DNA of 36,228 bases, taken from contig CAMCGZ010000023.1 of NCBI GenBank assembly GCA_945874535.1, forward strand, positions 1-36,228, written 5' to 3'. The DNA is from Bdellovibrio sp. ZAP7. Lineage in GTDB: Bacteria > Bdellovibrionota > UBA1018 > CAIMNF01. The notes beneath the pieces are model-generated. The model was not told where the DNA came from. It ran no database searches and was given only the letters and a program-made list of their open reading frames with translations. The translations under genes were made by a program, and so were the position numbers. Positions 2,511 through 16,982 of this stretch are shown one piece after another (the stretch's first letter is position 1; every line of letters begins with the position of its first letter).

Positions 2511-3268
2511 ATTTCGAGCGCATGCGCGACTTGGTCATAGTTCTGACCCAAAAAGAACTCAAGGCTCGCTATAAACACATGAAGCTCGGATACCTTTGGT
2601 CGCTCGGCAACCCCTTGGCCTATGGGCTCATCTACTGGCTGGTGTTCAAGTTTGTCATGAAGGTGAAGATCGAGGGATTTCCACTGTTTCTGGTTTCAGG
2701 TTTGTTCCCTTGGCAATGGTTTGTGAATTCCATCGGGGTTTCGGCCAACACTTTTGTTGGCAACGCCTCATTAATCAAAAAAGTGAACTTCCCTCGAAAT
2801 CTGCTTTCATTAGTTGTTTCAACTCAAGACCTGATTCATTTTTTGGCAGCATTACCCATCATCTTCGGGTTCATGTTGATCTACCAAAAGCCTTTTTCTC
2901 CACTTCTCCTGGTTGGCGTTCCCGCATTGGCAATGATCCAATTGCTTTACACTTACAGTTTAGGTCTGATTGTTTCGACGGTGAACATTTTCTTCCGGGA
3001 TGCAGAGAGGCTGATTGGCATCTTTATCACCTTTTTATTCTATCTTACACCCATCGTTTATAATCTAGATATGGTTCCAGAAGAGTTCCGTAAGTACGTC
3101 ATTCTGAACCCCCTCGCTCCCTTAATCCTGAATTGGAGAGGCCTTTTTCTAGAAGGGAACCTCAATGGTAGCTGGCTGATTCTTAGCATGGGCTATGGCT
3201 TAGCCTTTTTTTTGATGGGCCAATGGATCTATAAAAAACTGTCATGGCGATTTGCGGAGGTTCTGTGA
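2507..3268 (+). CDS. ABC-2 type polysaccharide export permease (Wzm/KpsM-like)
   Basis: Membrane subunit of an ABC exporter that moves a lipid-linked polysaccharide, typically O-antigen, capsule or teichoic-type polymer, across the inner membrane. The 253-residue length and roughly six hydrophobic segments fit the ABC-2 permease family. The cytoplasmic N-terminus reads LTQKELKARYKHMKLGYLWSL, the conserved amphipathic entry of Wzm/TagG proteins. LFPWQWF and LFYLTPIVY are also typical. GTG start lies within the GTGA overlap with the CapK-like gene. The ATPase partner follows directly. Confidence 0.92.
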   Translation: MNFERMRDLVIVLTQKELKARYKHMKLGYLWSLGNPLAYGLIYWLVFKFVMKVKIEGFPLFLVSGLFPWQWFVNSIGVSANTFVGNASLIKKVNFPRNLLSLVVSTQDLIHFLAALPIIFGFMLIYQKPFSPLLLVGVPALAMIQLLYTYSLGLIVSTVNIFFRDAERLIGIFITFLFYLTPIVYNLDMVPEEFRKYVILNPLAPLILNWRGLFLEGNLNGSWLILSMGYGLAFFLMGQWIYKKLSWRFAEVL

Positions 3269-4008
3269 ACAAGGTCGCCATAGAGTTCAAAGCGGTCTCT
3301 AAGGAATACCCTCTTTACTCGCATTTGGCAGGAGGACTCAAGGGTTTTATCTTTAACTTTCCAAGGAGCCTGAAGGGAATCACCCGCGAACGTTTTACCG
3401 CACTGAAAGACATCAGTTTTTCAATTCATCAGGGTGAGACTGTGGCATTCATGGGAAGAAATGGGGCAGGCAAGAGCACCACACTCGGCCTTATGGCGGG
3501 GGTACTAAAACCTAGCTCCGGGCAAGTGATGATCAGTGGAAGAGTCTCACCTCTTCTTGAACTCGGGGGAGGGTTCCACTCTGATCTTACGGGACGTGAA
3601 AACATTCGACTAAATGGAGTTTTACTTGGCCTTACCCGAAAGCAAGTTGAGGCGAGAGAGGCGGAAATTATAGAGTTCTCGGAACTTGGCGAATTTATTG
3701 ACCAACCGATCCGGATGTACTCCTCAGGGATGCTTTCGCGCTTAGGGTTCTCAGTCGTGGCCCACCTGGAGCCGGAAATCCTGCTCATCGACGAGATCCT
3801 CGCGGTTGGGGATATTCAGTTCCAAGAAAAGTGCAAAAAGAAGATTCAGGAATTCAAGAAGAACGGGGTCACCATTATCCTGGTATCCCACTCTATTGGC
3901 GACGTACGGGCCCTATGTGACCGAGTAATCTGGATCGAAAACCATATTGTCCGGAACGATGGTCCAACCTCTGAAGTTCTTCCTCAGTACGAACAGTTTT
4001 TCTCCTGA
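3265..4008 (+). CDS. ABC transporter ATP-binding protein for polysaccharide export (Wzt/KpsT/TagH-like)
   Basis: Energises the Wzm-like permease. The 247-residue nucleotide-binding domain contains Walker A GRNGAGKST (64-72), signature YSSGMLSRL (152-160) and Walker B ILLIDE (172-177), with the switch His in VSHS. It ends soon after the switch region, so it lacks the C-terminal carbohydrate-binding domain of E. coli O8/O9a Wzt. Recognition of a modified chain end by that route is therefore not expected. I chose GTG 3265, in a GTGA overlap with the permease and 4 nt after GGAGG. An ATG at 3244 would add seven residues. Its stop abuts the opposing gene's stop in TGATCA. Confidence 0.92.
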   Translation: MNKVAIEFKAVSKEYPLYSHLAGGLKGFIFNFPRSLKGITRERFTALKDISFSIHQGETVAFMGRNGAGKSTTLGLMAGVLKPSSGQVMISGRVSPLLELGGGFHSDLTGRENIRLNGVLLGLTRKQVEAREAEIIEFSELGEFIDQPIRMYSSGMLSRLGFSVVAHLEPEILLIDEILAVGDIQFQEKCKKKIQEFKKNGVTIILVSHSIGDVRALCDRVIWIENHIVRNDGPTSEVLPQYEQFFS

Positions 4009-7344: not shown

Positions 7345-8519
7345 TTTATTTCCTTGCTTCGGATGATTTCGAGCATTTTATTCAGTCTACGATCCCAGGT
7401 GTTTTCACGGACCAGGATTTCACATCCTTCCGGGTCCTGAACTCCAGCCTTAAAAGACTCATCGAGCGCCTGCTCTAAGGTTTCCGCGGAATCATAGGCC
7501 CTGAAATACCGGGAGTGCTCTTCTAGCGAATCAATTCTCCTGGCCACAATCGGCTTCCCAGCCGCCATGTATTCGAAAAACTTCATCGGAAACATCGATT
7601 GAGTGTAGTCGTTCAAAGGGCAGGGAATCACGGCAACATCGAAGTGAGCAAGGTAACGCGGGAGCTCTGAATAGGCCTTGGGTCCCAGAAAGTGAATATT
7701 CGGCTCCCCTTGCAGCGACTCCATTCCGGCATCGGGTTGCCCCTCACCCACCTTGCCGATCAGCACCCAGTGCCAATCTCGGCGATTACGGGCTACTGCC
7801 AGAACCGACTCCACGTCGAATTTGTAGGAGCTCAAAGCTCCGACGAATCCGATTCGAGGCTTTGGAATCGACTCCAATTCCCGTGGAAGTTCCTGCGCCA
7901 CACAAGCCTTTGAAAAATGATCAAAGTCGACCACATTTCCAAAATAATGGGTCTTGCCGGATGCCAGAGCCTTGCAATGGGCTTCGATCTTCCGACTGGT
8001 GCAGAACACCACATCGCAAGCCTGCAGGAGTTCGGCCTCGTGGGTCAATATGGTTTCGCGATCTACCCCTGGTGCAGCCGCAAGGTCGTCGACACTGTGG
8101 TAGATGACTTTTCTTGCCCCAATTGAACGGGCTAGATCGAGCACCAGGGGATTGTAGGTCCATACCCAAGGGTGATTGAACCCGAGCCGCCACTGGATCC
8201 ACGAAAGCCAAGTCTTGAGAATCCATCGATTGAGAGCACGAACCCACGAAAAACGATGCAGCGGCAAGACCAGGGGCGAAAATACGAACAGTCCCGACTG
8301 GACTTCCCGCACCCCCCGGAAGAGCTTCCGGATCCGGGCCAGGATCCTCCGGAAGTCGGTGGAAGCAAGCTTGGGTTGCCGAAGACCGAGCGACTCGATA
8401 TAGAGCACACGATAGCCCCTGGCAACGAGGTGTACAGCGGTATGCTGTTTATTCGTCCAAAAGGGGTTGTCCCAATCAGCGGTAGAAAAAAGAACGATGG
8501 GAGGAGGAGTTGGTTTCAC
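7341..8519 (-). CDS. Glycosyltransferase (GT4/TuaH-like)
   Basis: The 392-residue GT-B protein resembles the TuaH-like branch. VLFSTADWDNPFWTNKQH at the N-terminus and HSVDDLAAAPGV with later VVFCTSRKIEAHC are typical of it. The donor-site half has RIGFVGALSSYKFD, LLGPKAYSELPRYL, FPMKFFEYMAAGKPIVAR and a conserved E. I chose GTG at 8519 because AAGGAA lies 7 nt upstream and homology starts there. An in-frame ATG at 8684 would run 125 bp into the divergent methyltransferase gene and adds residues with no family character. It forms an operon with methyltransferase A. Confidence 0.83.
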   Translation of the reverse strand: MKPTPPPIVLFSTADWDNPFWTNKQHTAVHLVARGYRVLYIESLGLRQPKLASTDFRRILARIRKLFRGVREVQSGLFVFSPLVLPLHRFSWVRALNRWILKTWLSWIQWRLGFNHPWVWTYNPLVLDLARSIGARKVIYHSVDDLAAAPGVDRETILTHEAELLQACDVVFCTSRKIEAHCKALASGKTHYFGNVVDFDHFSKACVAQELPRELESIPKPRIGFVGALSSYKFDVESVLAVARNRRDWHWVLIGKVGEGQPDAGMESLQGEPNIHFLGPKAYSELPRYLAHFDVAVIPCPLNDYTQSMFPMKFFEYMAAGKPIVARRIDSLEEHSRYFRAYDSAETLEQALDESFKAGVQDPEGCEILVRENTWDRRLNKMLEIIRSKEIK

Positions 8520-14670: not shown

Positions 14671-15462
14671 CTAAAACAAACCCCTTCGCGCCCGACGGCG
14701 CATGCGGTTTCGCTTCCAGCGCTCCCAAAAACCCTGGCTCTCGTAAATGGGGTACCGGCCCCACTTTTCTATAAAAAGCCGGAGGCCCTCTTGCTCGTAA
14801 CCGCTCGGGAGCAGGTTCGGAGTCCCCCGGGTGCCCATCGAATGGTGCCAGATGTAACATCGGCTGGTCTGCCCGTAAAGGATGCCCAAGATCCGCATGC
14901 GCTGAAGCAAGTCTCCGTCTTCGTAGGTCACGAAGAAGCGCTCATCAAAGAGTCCGCCATGATCGAAGCGGAGGCGCTCGACCGCACTCCGGGTGAAGAA
15001 CATGAGCATGGCTACGAAGTGCTCACGGAATCGATTCGGGTTACGCTCCAGAAACTCTCGTGCACGGGCATCGGGGTTCTCCACCCAGGGACGCTCGTCA
15101 AAGAAGGGGCCGACCTCGTCGAGCCCACGGGCTTTGATTTCGTCAATCAAGGCTTGATCCCAACCTTTCATGAGCCAGGTATCGTTGTTCACGATCGCCA
15201 CATAGGCGCCCGTCGAAGTTCGAATGCCCTGATTGCACGCGCGGCCGAAGCCGGCATTCTGTTCGTTACGGATGGCGCGAAAGCGAATTCCCTGCGCCTC
15301 GAAGCGAGTGACCCAATTGAGAAGGACCTCAGGGGTTGAATCGCTAGAAGCATTGTCGACCACGGTCACTTCAGACAAGGCCCTTGAGTTGCGAAGCAGG
15401 GAATCGAGACAGCGATTCGTGAATTCGGCCTTGTTGAACACGGGGATGACGACGGAAACCAT
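14671..15462 (-). CDS. GT2 family glycosyltransferase, tandem copy 2
   Basis: The 263-residue GT-A enzyme shares the layout of the neighbouring copy: MVSVVIPVFNKAEFTNRCL, TVVDNASSDSTPEVL, NAGFGRACNQGI, IVNNDTWLMKGWDQAL, RFFVTYEDGDLLQRM and a CYIWHHSMGTRG-like segment. The ATG at 15462 sits directly on the first beta strand as usual for the family, though no clear ribosome site is visible. It is the promoter-proximal gene of the pair and borders the A+T-rich toxin-antitoxin islet. Confidence 0.88.
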   Translation of the reverse strand: MVSVVIPVFNKAEFTNRCLDSLLRNSRALSEVTVVDNASSDSTPEVLLNWVTRFEAQGIRFRAIRNEQNAGFGRACNQGIRTSTGAYVAIVNNDTWLMKGWDQALIDEIKARGLDEVGPFFDERPWVENPDARAREFLERNPNRFREHFVAMLMFFTRSAVERLRFDHGGLFDERFFVTYEDGDLLQRMRILGILYGQTSRCYIWHHSMGTRGTPNLLPSGYEQEGLRLFIEKWGRYPIYESQGFWERWKRNRMRRRARRGLF

Positions 15463-15611
15463 AGAGTCTAAATTACTACGATTTTCTCGCTAAGGGTTCA
15501 TTTTTCAACCCATGTCCAAACAGTCCGAATCACGGACGGGAGTCCGAGGCATCTCGCCGAAACCTGAGCGGCAAACCCTAAAGCTGCCCCATGCGGATTG
15601 AGGAAGGGCAT

Positions 15612-15643
15612 ACAAATTGAATTATCCCAACCCTTTGATTTGT
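15612..15643. repeat. Inverted repeat upstream of the toxin-antitoxin leader
   Basis: Arms ACAAAT (15612-15617) and ATTTGT (15638-15643) are 20 nt apart. They lie in the gene-free stretch 15463-15729, which otherwise shows only A+T-rich promoter-like sequence (TATTAT, 15685-15690, a possible -10) and the GGGTTA repeats annotated separately. Confidence 0.3.
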
Positions 15644-15680
15644 AGGAGCAAATAAAACTCTATGAGCATTTTATTGTATT

Positions 15681-15725
15681 GGGTTATTATATTCACCATA
15701 ACCCCTTCAGGGGGATCTGGGGTTA
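15681..15725 (+). promoter_or_regulatory. Alternating GGGTTA/TAACCC leader with mutually exclusive hairpins
   Basis: Three copies of one core occur in alternating orientation: GGGTTAT (15681-15687), ATAACCCC (15698-15705) and GGGGTTA (15719-15725). The middle arm can pair with either outer arm, and CCCC (15702-15705) can also pair with GGGG at 15711-15714 across a short loop. The third arm holds the only GGGG near the ATG at 15730, so pairing would hide the likely ribosome site. It could be an operator for the HTH antitoxin, an RNA switch, or both. Confidence 0.5.
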
Positions 15726-15729
15726 CCCA

Positions 15730-16053
15730 ATGATCGAGGAAATATCCGGAATCGGTGGGCTGAAAATACAGATTTGGCAGGACGATTTTCAGCATGCACT
15801 GGACGGACATCCTGAAGTCACGCTCGATCGGGTAAAAATCGCGCTTCAGTCTCCCCTAGCGGTGATTGAAAGCAAGCACAGTAAAAATGCATGTCTGTTT
15901 TACACCCTGGAGGGGGTGGACGAGAAAACAAAAGAGAGGACCTACTTTTGCGTAGTAGTTGCGGTTTTAGGGGGCGGCGTTGGAAAGATGGAAACAGCAT
16001 ACGAAACAACCTACATGAAGTCAGGCAAGGTGCTTCACGGCAAGGAAGAATAA
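15730..16053 (+). CDS. Predicted PBECR/RelE-like nuclease, probable toxin
   Basis: The 107-residue protein has the pattern of the PBECR/DUF4258-like small predicted RNase group: HPEVTLDRVKIALQSP, VIESKHSK, LFYTLEG, YFCVVVAVLGGG and a terminal METAYETTYMKSGKVLHG (family-like TAYxT). The ATG at 15730 follows GGGG by 7 nt; an upstream ATG at 15679 would place the leader repeats inside the coding region. A DUF2283-HTH gene follows after 3 nt, the usual arrangement of a toxin-antitoxin pair. RNase activity is inferred from family resemblance and context only. Composition is more A+T-rich than the flanking polysaccharide genes. Confidence 0.6.
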   Translation: MIEEISGIGGLKIQIWQDDFQHALDGHPEVTLDRVKIALQSPLAVIESKHSKNACLFYTLEGVDEKTKERTYFCVVVAVLGGGVGKMETAYETTYMKSGKVLHGKEE

Positions 16054-16056
16054 TCT

Positions 16057-16455
16057 ATGGTGATTAAATACAACCATGACACAGGTCTTATGTATATCCA
16101 CTATGCGACCGGCATTCCGAACATTCAGGTTCGTACCGGAAATACAGAGATTGCAAAATTTGTCGCTAAAGCAAACCGCGAACAAATCGTCGGATATGAG
16201 ATCGAAAACACTGAAAACAACTTCGATTTCATCATGAACCGAATCGGACTCAGCCGTAAGCAAAAACTGGCAGTAGTCATGTGTTTCATCCGGGAAAAAC
16301 AAAAGAAAACCCAAAAAGAATTCTCAACCATCATCAATGTCAGTGAGAGCACCTACAAGAGCATTGAGCGCGCCGAGCACAATATCAATTTCGATACCTT
16401 GGATGTCATTTACAACCAATTCAACAAAGAGCCCGCTCTCCATGGCATTTTCTGA
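16057..16455 (+). CDS. DUF2283-like domain fused to a helix-turn-helix, probable antitoxin
   Basis: The 132-residue protein has two parts. Residues ~1-56 (VIKYNHDTGLMYIHYATG ... QIVGYEIENT) match the DUF2283 pattern of a small beta-rich domain ending in GxEI. Residues ~66-130 (LSRKQKLAVVMCFIREKQ, then TQKEFSTIINVSESTYKSIERAEHN) form an XRE/Cro-like helix-turn-helix. It is co-transcribed with the predicted nuclease across a 3-nt gap. The expected role is neutralising the toxin through the DUF2283 part and repressing the operon through the HTH, with the leader repeats as a candidate site. Confidence 0.6.
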   Translation: MVIKYNHDTGLMYIHYATGIPNIQVRTGNTEIAKFVAKANREQIVGYEIENTENNFDFIMNRIGLSRKQKLAVVMCFIREKQKKTQKEFSTIINVSESTYKSIERAEHNINFDTLDVIYNQFNKEPALHGIF

Positions 16456-16508
16456 AGATAGCTGCGGAATCGGCTTACCATCACGCCAATTATTGAAGTT
16501 CCATTTTC

Positions 16509-16522
16509 CGGACCCGGGTCCG
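16509..16522. repeat. Perfect 14-bp palindrome CGGACCCGGGTCCG
   Basis: A fully self-complementary G+C-rich sequence in an otherwise A+T-leaning 212-bp gap between the antitoxin gene and the orphan COG3636 gene. It could be an operator or the stem of a terminator-like hairpin for the upstream pair, but no T-run follows on either strand. Confidence 0.45.
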
Positions 16523-16573
16523 AATTCCAGAGGCTATCGAGCTTAAAATCATTGGCATTTTACAACCCTACCC

Positions 16574-16591
16574 AGTTGCTGATTTGCAACT
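16574..16591. promoter_or_regulatory. Inverted repeat upstream of the COG3636-like gene
   Basis: Arms AGTTGC (16574-16579) and GCAACT (16586-16591) are separated by 6 nt, 77 bp before the ATG at 16668. The size suits binding by a dimeric HTH protein such as the gene product downstream. Confidence 0.35.
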
Positions 16592-16667
16592 CCGGGCCCA
16601 TGTGAAACCCAAACGGAACAACCCCCTTGAACGCGTGTCCGGTATGCCGTACAGTGGATCCAAAAAA

Positions 16668-16982
16668 ATGGCCAACAAAAAGATATCCAAAAAGCTAAAA
16701 GAATCCTCAAAACTTACGTACAGGGAGTACGTGGCGGATATTTTCCCTGATCTGGCTGACAAAAGGAAGGTCCGTGAAGTCTTGATTGAGGCCCTCACAG
16801 AAAACGATCTCGAGACCTTCCAGGACGTATTGATTGCATACCTTCGTACCAGTTCTAAGCTGACGTTGGCCCGCAACCTGAAAATGGGGCGTAGTACCCT
16901 TTATGACCTCATGGATCCAAACAAGCCCTTTAACCCTACTCTCGAAACCCTGGGGAAAATCTTCCAGGACTTGGCTGCCTAG
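16668..16982 (+). CDS. Orphan COG3636-type antitoxin (HigA-like DNA-binding protein)
   Basis: The 104-residue protein resembles the addiction-module antidote family COG3636/TIGR02684. REVLIEALTENDLETFQDVLIAYLR corresponds to the family's conserved helices, followed by ARNLKMGRSTLYDLMDPNKPFNPTLETLGKIFQDL, a helix-turn-helix with the usual N/G-x-P-T-L end. Start ATG has GGA about 8 nt upstream; in-frame ATGs at 16644 and 16584 are less likely. No RelE/HigB partner is next to it, which such genes usually have, so it is either an orphan, a regulator, or the survivor of a decayed module. Confidence 0.65.
   Translation: MANKKISKKLKESSKLTYREYVADIFPDLADKRKVREVLIEALTENDLETFQDVLIAYLRTSSKLTLARNLKMGRSTLYDLMDPNKPFNPTLETLGKIFQDLAA

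Follow-up and report, generated by a model that had tools for sequence, protein, structure and literature searches.

HipB has tandem operator sites over its promoter. HigA of P. aeruginosa places two cooperating HTH dimers on paired palindromes in the toxin-first higBA promoter (PMC6987408), and the 35-bp double operator of C.Esp1396I takes up two adjacent dimers, each over a TATA centre with GTC boxes (PMC4041747). BrnA, from another such system, is typically a ribbon-helix-helix antitoxin (PMC11980606). We analysed a 36,228-nt stretch of DNA (here called the window, meaning the whole stretch that was analysed) in which a toxin gene directly precedes an antitoxin gene. With a probability of about 77%, we read the DNA just ahead of the toxin gene as the promoter-operator of a toxin-first type II toxin-antitoxin operon, with the antitoxin acting as autorepressor.

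The toxin-antitoxin pair and its neighbourhood

The two genes are as follows.
15730-16053, + strand: toxin gene, 107 aa from the ATG at 15730; RelE/BrnT-like (BECR) model; PBECR2/PBECR3/DUF4258-like family
16057-16455, + strand: antitoxin gene, 132 aa; beta domain at the N-terminus, HTH_3 domain at the C-terminus; presumed to act as repressor

The toxin model (pLDDT 87.7) was nearest to BrnT (3u97; Z 7.2) and to the toxin of a Salmonella complex (7vd7; Z 7.3), with further matches at Z 6.2 and 6.1. Most of its top 12 structural matches were RelE-superfamily toxins, all with Z below 8, and Foldseek gave an E value of 0.03. Matches to PBECR2, PBECR3 and DUF4258 across the toxin family were weak; eight members matched PBECR2 and one matched DUF4258. 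In Pfam, the window toxin scored below the gathering score for PBECR2 and had no BrnT match; a PDB profile search with it gave no match, and it had no relatives in the plasmid and phage records searched. The window antitoxin matched HTH_3 with an E value of 1.1e-7 (32.2 bits against a cut-off of 23), and an HTH_3 match was found in all 11 antitoxin family members, with a DUF2283-like N-terminal domain in 2 of 11 relatives. The closest HTH structures to the antitoxin model (pLDDT 91.4), by fold and by sequence, include C.Esp1396I, C.BclI, and HipB, the last with a PDB profile match at an E value of about 1e-3. Viral contigs searched with the antitoxin and with the antitoxin alignment held no relatives. 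These matches establish the family of the antitoxin; the RelE-superfamily (BECR) fold of the toxin is a tentative assignment.

For comparison we used ten further distinct loci, with antitoxins 33-75% identical, together with a near-identical copy in genome G006. Kinship and the named relatives, which are Bdellovibrionales and Bacteriovoracales assemblies, assign the window to a Bdellovibrionota genome. The toxin-antitoxin pair is kept in the window and in L009, L010, L011, L013, L014, L021, L023, and L024. In two other loci the toxin is broken while antitoxin and operator are intact: it is shortened in L012 (upstream of the antitoxin at 3001-3396) and carries a frame change in L005 (1157-1485). 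Antitoxin and operator outlive the toxin in these two loci.

The block that carries the pair (about 15460-16980 of the window) matches G006 at 97-100% identity, compared to 84-99% for the neighbouring glycosyltransferase, and the block is present in only 2 of the 12 genomes of the genus. The sequence comparison makes recent exchange or acquisition of the block likely. A 28-bp sequence, AGTCCGAATCACGGACGGGAGTCCGAGG, lies at 15522-15549 as the single copy in the window genome. It occurs twice in G006 (L008, 2466-2493 and 4080-4107) as direct copies 1.6 kb apart, which flank the toxin-antitoxin pair and the next HTH gene, and none of the 10 remaining genomes of the genus contains it; it possibly delimits a mobile block. 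A third small gene, at 16584-16982, likely encodes an orphan antitoxin-like HTH protein and has no evident toxin partner beside it. Its product matched the NCBIfam addiction module antidote model dnstrm_HI1420 with an E value of 2.4e-4, below the cut-off.

A conserved palindrome on a predicted promoter

The elements ahead of the toxin gene are listed below.
15681-15687, + strand: arm 1, GGGTTAT; left part of operator repeat 2, within the promoter spacer
15698-15705, + strand: arm 2, ATAACCCC; on the -10 position
15719-15725, + strand: arm 3, GGGGTTA; purine-rich, ahead of the ATG, may serve as ribosome site; lacks conservation
15683-15696, unstranded: operator repeat 2, GTTATTATATTCAC; window copy of the family near-palindrome, dyad centre 15689.5
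15665-15678, unstranded: operator repeat 1, degenerate, AGCATTTTATTGTA; lies 18 bp upstream of repeat 2 in the register given by alignment to close relatives
15674-15679, + strand: -35 position, TTGTAT, from ungapped alignment; TTGACC/T in relatives
15697-15702, + strand: -10 position, CATAAC, from ungapped alignment with a 17-bp spacer; overlaps arm 2; weak consensus match
15709, + strand: predicted transcription start, 7 nt after the -10 position, from promoter alignment

A near-palindrome, GTyAATATATTrAC or a close copy of it, lies immediately ahead of the toxin gene or at its 5' end in every locus, the window and the ten others alike. With a leave-one-out matrix, the window site at 15683-15696 scored 17.2 bits, against a mean maximum of 0.5 in shuffled sequence (0/300). 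A matrix built from five other loci, with the window excluded, gave it 17.1 bits (0/300) and ranked it as the top site in the 36 kb; the same site read on the other strand was the second-best match, in keeping with a palindrome. Leave-one-out matrices found the motif at the expected place in 11 of 11 loci (0/300 shuffles in ten of them, 2/300 in L024), loci that share kinship and hence are not fully independent. In L005, L011, L012, L014, and L024 the motif is not part of the toxin frame. A matrix trained on these five loci recovered the five inside-frame loci and the window (0/300 each), and the reverse training recovered the outside-frame loci with 0-3/300.

Among five divergent loci, mean identity was 0.68 over motif columns 0-20 and about 0.25-0.40 around them. 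Beyond motif and promoter the leaders show no relationship, with identity of about 0.25-0.30 on the upstream side. The dyad is sharp, with 4.7 of 7 pairs at the centre compared to 1.5-2.4 at shifted centres, and in the window the 15683-15696 site is the best 7-bp dyad between 15600 and 15760, tied with one at the CCCC/GGGG hairpin. The conservation, position, and symmetry of the motif are established by these comparisons. The exact consensus occurs 13 times in 369 genomes, compared to 7 times for a reversed control, and only 4 of the occurrences are at these operons. Most distant antitoxin relatives are without a good motif copy. One distant relative, L025, whose antitoxin is about 30% identical, carries a palindrome resembling the operator, AAAGGTGAATATATTTAAGAAT, at 1195-1216, where a toxin-like frame, itself split in two, begins.

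A second motif copy lies 18 bp away in 8 of the 10 other loci, with copy quality that varies; in the window, repeat 1 scores weakly (-2.9 bits). The register that places repeat 1 at -65 was best or tied best of 210 for 6 of the 10 homologues. We rejected the register that takes the window's best site as repeat 1; in the six best-aligning loci, identity under it drops from 23-26 to 15-19 of 46 positions. It is favoured by L011 alone, and L014, L005, and L012 do not decide.

The motif coincides with promoter elements. In 9 of the 10 other loci its TTGAC half is the -35 element of a sigma70-type promoter, followed by a 17-bp spacer and a TATAAT-like -10, and in all 10 the best promoter match within 200 bp lies on the motif. 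L009, L010, L013, and L023 have TTGACC/T-N17-TATAAT, and the -10 is TACAAT in L021, TATTAT in L005, L011 (where the -35 is TTGCCC), and L024, and TAAAAT in L012. Five of these ten loci score 10-11 of 12 promoter letters (TTGAC plus TATAAT or TACAAT), and four of the five closest relatives have TATAAT as the -10. In L014 the operator is present; the best promoter fit there has an 18-bp spacer and would put the start after the toxin ATG. This promoter geometry is established for the relatives. In the window, the -10 position is 27 nt from the toxin reference codon, the same distance as in L009 and L021. The window is the exception among the loci: its own -35 and -10 boxes agree with the consensus at only 7 of 12 letters, a chance-level match, and are the main soft spot of the promoter-operator reading.

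The preliminary description of this locus had pointed to the three arms as a possible attenuator or RNA switch, or alternatively as paired operators for the HTH antitoxin. The idea of paired operators holds in so far as a conserved near-palindrome, at 15683-15696, is predicted to overlap the promoter; the dyad, however, is not GGGTTAT/ATAACCC. That repeat was considered as the operator dyad and rejected, as it is not conserved. Operator repeat 2 spans most of arm 1 plus the loop after it, its dyad centre lies 3 bp to the left of that of the GGGTTAT/ATAACCC repeat, and its partner repeat is 18 bp upstream, not at arm 3.

We infer that the antitoxin is the protein that binds these sites and that its binding represses the operon. 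The two near-palindromic sites, with centres 18 bp apart, would overlap the -35 and fill the spacer up to the -10. HTH_3 antitoxin dimers, probably with bound toxin, would sit next to each other on the two sites and keep RNA polymerase out; degradation of the antitoxin would free the promoter and renew the supply from the operon. A transcription start near 15709 implies that arms 1 and 2 would not be transcribed. They would then be DNA elements upstream of the start and absent from the mRNA, and arm 3 would be a non-conserved G tract near the ATG. The likeliest arrangement is one that is ordinary for such gene pairs and, if the reading is right, amounts to ordinary autoregulation. What is unusual is that the operator is so well kept while its surroundings change, and that the promoter of some relatives falls within a reading frame that continues into the toxin. 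The guess of an RNA switch is replaced by a concrete, testable candidate operator for a Bdellovibrionota toxin-antitoxin family, and the 14-bp consensus with its 18-bp tandem geometry can be used to find further family members and to test binding.

Other readings of the region before the toxin gene

In the close relatives the entire promoter-operator lies within an open frame that runs into the toxin. The motif might be kept for the peptide that it encodes, KGKYIDHGKDIDYN, as the first part of a longer toxin, which in the window would begin at the TTG at 15679. In five close relatives an in-frame ATG does occur 69-81 nt upstream, preceded by a purine-rich tract, and their extensions stay open; the window is open in the same register. 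However, the same DNA letters occur in the five loci where the motif is outside the toxin frame, and matrices trained on either group find the other. The segment also reads as a near-perfect promoter whose spacer is 17 bp, and a palindrome with an 18-bp repeat is explained by DNA, not by a peptide. We consider conservation for coding improbable; in the five close relatives, the frame that stays open ahead of the promoter could be a coincidence.

A second reading involves a small frame that overlaps the toxin start.
15662-15733, + strand: 23-codon open frame, MSILLYWVIIFTITPSGGSGVTQ and stop; overlaps the toxin ATG (ATGA)

Here transcription would come from upstream of 15640, the 23-codon peptide would be translated from the ATG at 15662, and the ribosome would stop at the ATGA overlap and restart on the toxin ATG at 15730, with local hairpins tuning the restart. 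The frame exists, ends in ATGA at the toxin start, and has AGGAG 13 nt upstream of its ATG, a spacing that is long for a ribosome site. Small motif-started frames that overlap the toxin are also present in L005, L012, and L014; in these, however, the ATG belongs to the flank of the palindrome (ATGGTTAATATATTGACTAT) and is thus explained by the DNA motif. Such a start is missing from L011 and L024, and the peptides differ between loci. Most of the window frame lies upstream of the predicted transcription start. The G006 leader is nearly identical to that of the window and is thus uninformative on coding selection in the frame. Translational coupling of this kind seems unlikely to us, and the 23-codon frame is probably incidental.

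The promoter-operator and coding readings might also be combined. One stretch of DNA would encode the toxin N-terminus (KGKYIDHGKDIDYN) when transcribed from an upstream promoter and would serve as operator for a leaderless short toxin, with its ATG about 7 nt after the -10, so that the antitoxin would switch between two toxin forms. An ATG 6-7 nt after the -10 is present in L010, L013, L021, and L024 and would suit a leaderless message; L009 and L023 have no ATG between the promoter and the conserved toxin region. We regard two such toxin forms as quite improbable.

In the attenuator or RNA switch of the preliminary description, the middle arm would pair with either neighbour, forming alternative 1:2 and 2:3 hairpins in the leader, one of which would mask the ribosome site. 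The letters given for GGGTTAT, ATAACCCC, and GGGGTTA are all in place, and the proposed CCCC/GGGG pairing is also there, as CCCC-TTCA-GGGG between arms 2 and 3, in a hairpin that is part of the favoured RNA structure. On paper the two arm helices are mutually exclusive (isolated energies of -6.5 kcal/mol for 1:2 and -9.7 kcal/mol for 2:3), and arms 1 and 2 folded by themselves are slightly better than shuffles (z of -1.32). The arrangement itself did not stand out: triples in which a 6-nt arm is followed by its reverse complement and by a further copy of itself, all within 50 nt, occurred three times in the window (at 8316, 15681, and 29007), and 30 dinucleotide shuffles of the 36-kb window gave 1.2 on average. 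We conclude that the alternating arms are not beyond chance as an RNA feature.

Folding of four leader segments (50-149 nt) gave energies no better than those of dinucleotide shuffles (z of 0.40, 0.94, 0.14, and 0.45). In the partition function, the 1:2 helix had a pair probability of about 0.02 and the 2:3 helix one of about 0.002, because other local hairpins win; in the favoured fold of the leader, the CCCC/GGGG hairpin is accompanied by a GGGG(TTA)CCC pairing beside the start codon. None of the ten other homologous leaders, which come from across Bdellovibrionota, has arm 2 or arm 3, and none has a run of more than 4 nt complementary to arm 1 within 70 nt downstream. In an ungapped alignment of the closest six leaders, the 1:2 helix had no compensatory (double) change and paired no better than slid controls, and the 2:3 helix had two pairs with double changes, inside the shuffle range. 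The RNA switch is thereby refuted on the terms set in the preliminary description, which named leaders lacking the arms or a lack of compensatory changes as refutation. Folding of all the homologous leaders showed no consistent stability; only L010 and L024 had z below -2, and their structures are unrelated. At a relaxed threshold, Rfam returned chance-level matches only (23.1 and 16.3 bits, under the gathering scores). If the promoter assignment is right, arms 1 and 2 would moreover be untranscribed. We conclude that an attenuator or RNA switch is not supported and is very unlikely at this locus.

Comparison with known systems

The promoter-operator reading sets this locus among several described systems, each of which it resembles in part. 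Its toxin resembles the BrnT and DUF4258 toxins of the RelE/ParE superfamily, with a model nearest to BrnT 3u97 and 7vd7; unlike in BrnT/BrnA, the antitoxin is of the HTH_3 type and not ribbon-helix-helix. HipB is an HTH_3 relative of this antitoxin and likewise has tandem sites over the promoter, whereas the toxin here is RelE/BrnT-like and not a HipA kinase, and the site sequence differs. C.Esp1396I is among the closest HTH structures to the antitoxin, and the sites here, with an ATAT/TATA centre and with ends of GAC/GTC, resemble its TATA-centred sites with GTC boxes. Beside the toxin-antitoxin pair, no genes for restriction-modification were noticed. C proteins act as activators before they act as repressors; with both sites overlapping the predicted promoter, as here, only repression is expected. 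In HigBA, as here, the toxin gene comes first, the antitoxin is an HTH protein, and two palindromic sites lie in the operon promoter, which here is a predicted one; the toxin here is tentatively RelE-superfamily-like as well. The antitoxin here differs from that of HigBA in its extra N-terminal beta domain, and the predicted sites differ in being centred 18 bp apart with an AATATATT core; the HigBA operator is a TTAAC/GTTAA-type palindrome, similar to GTTAATATATTGAC.
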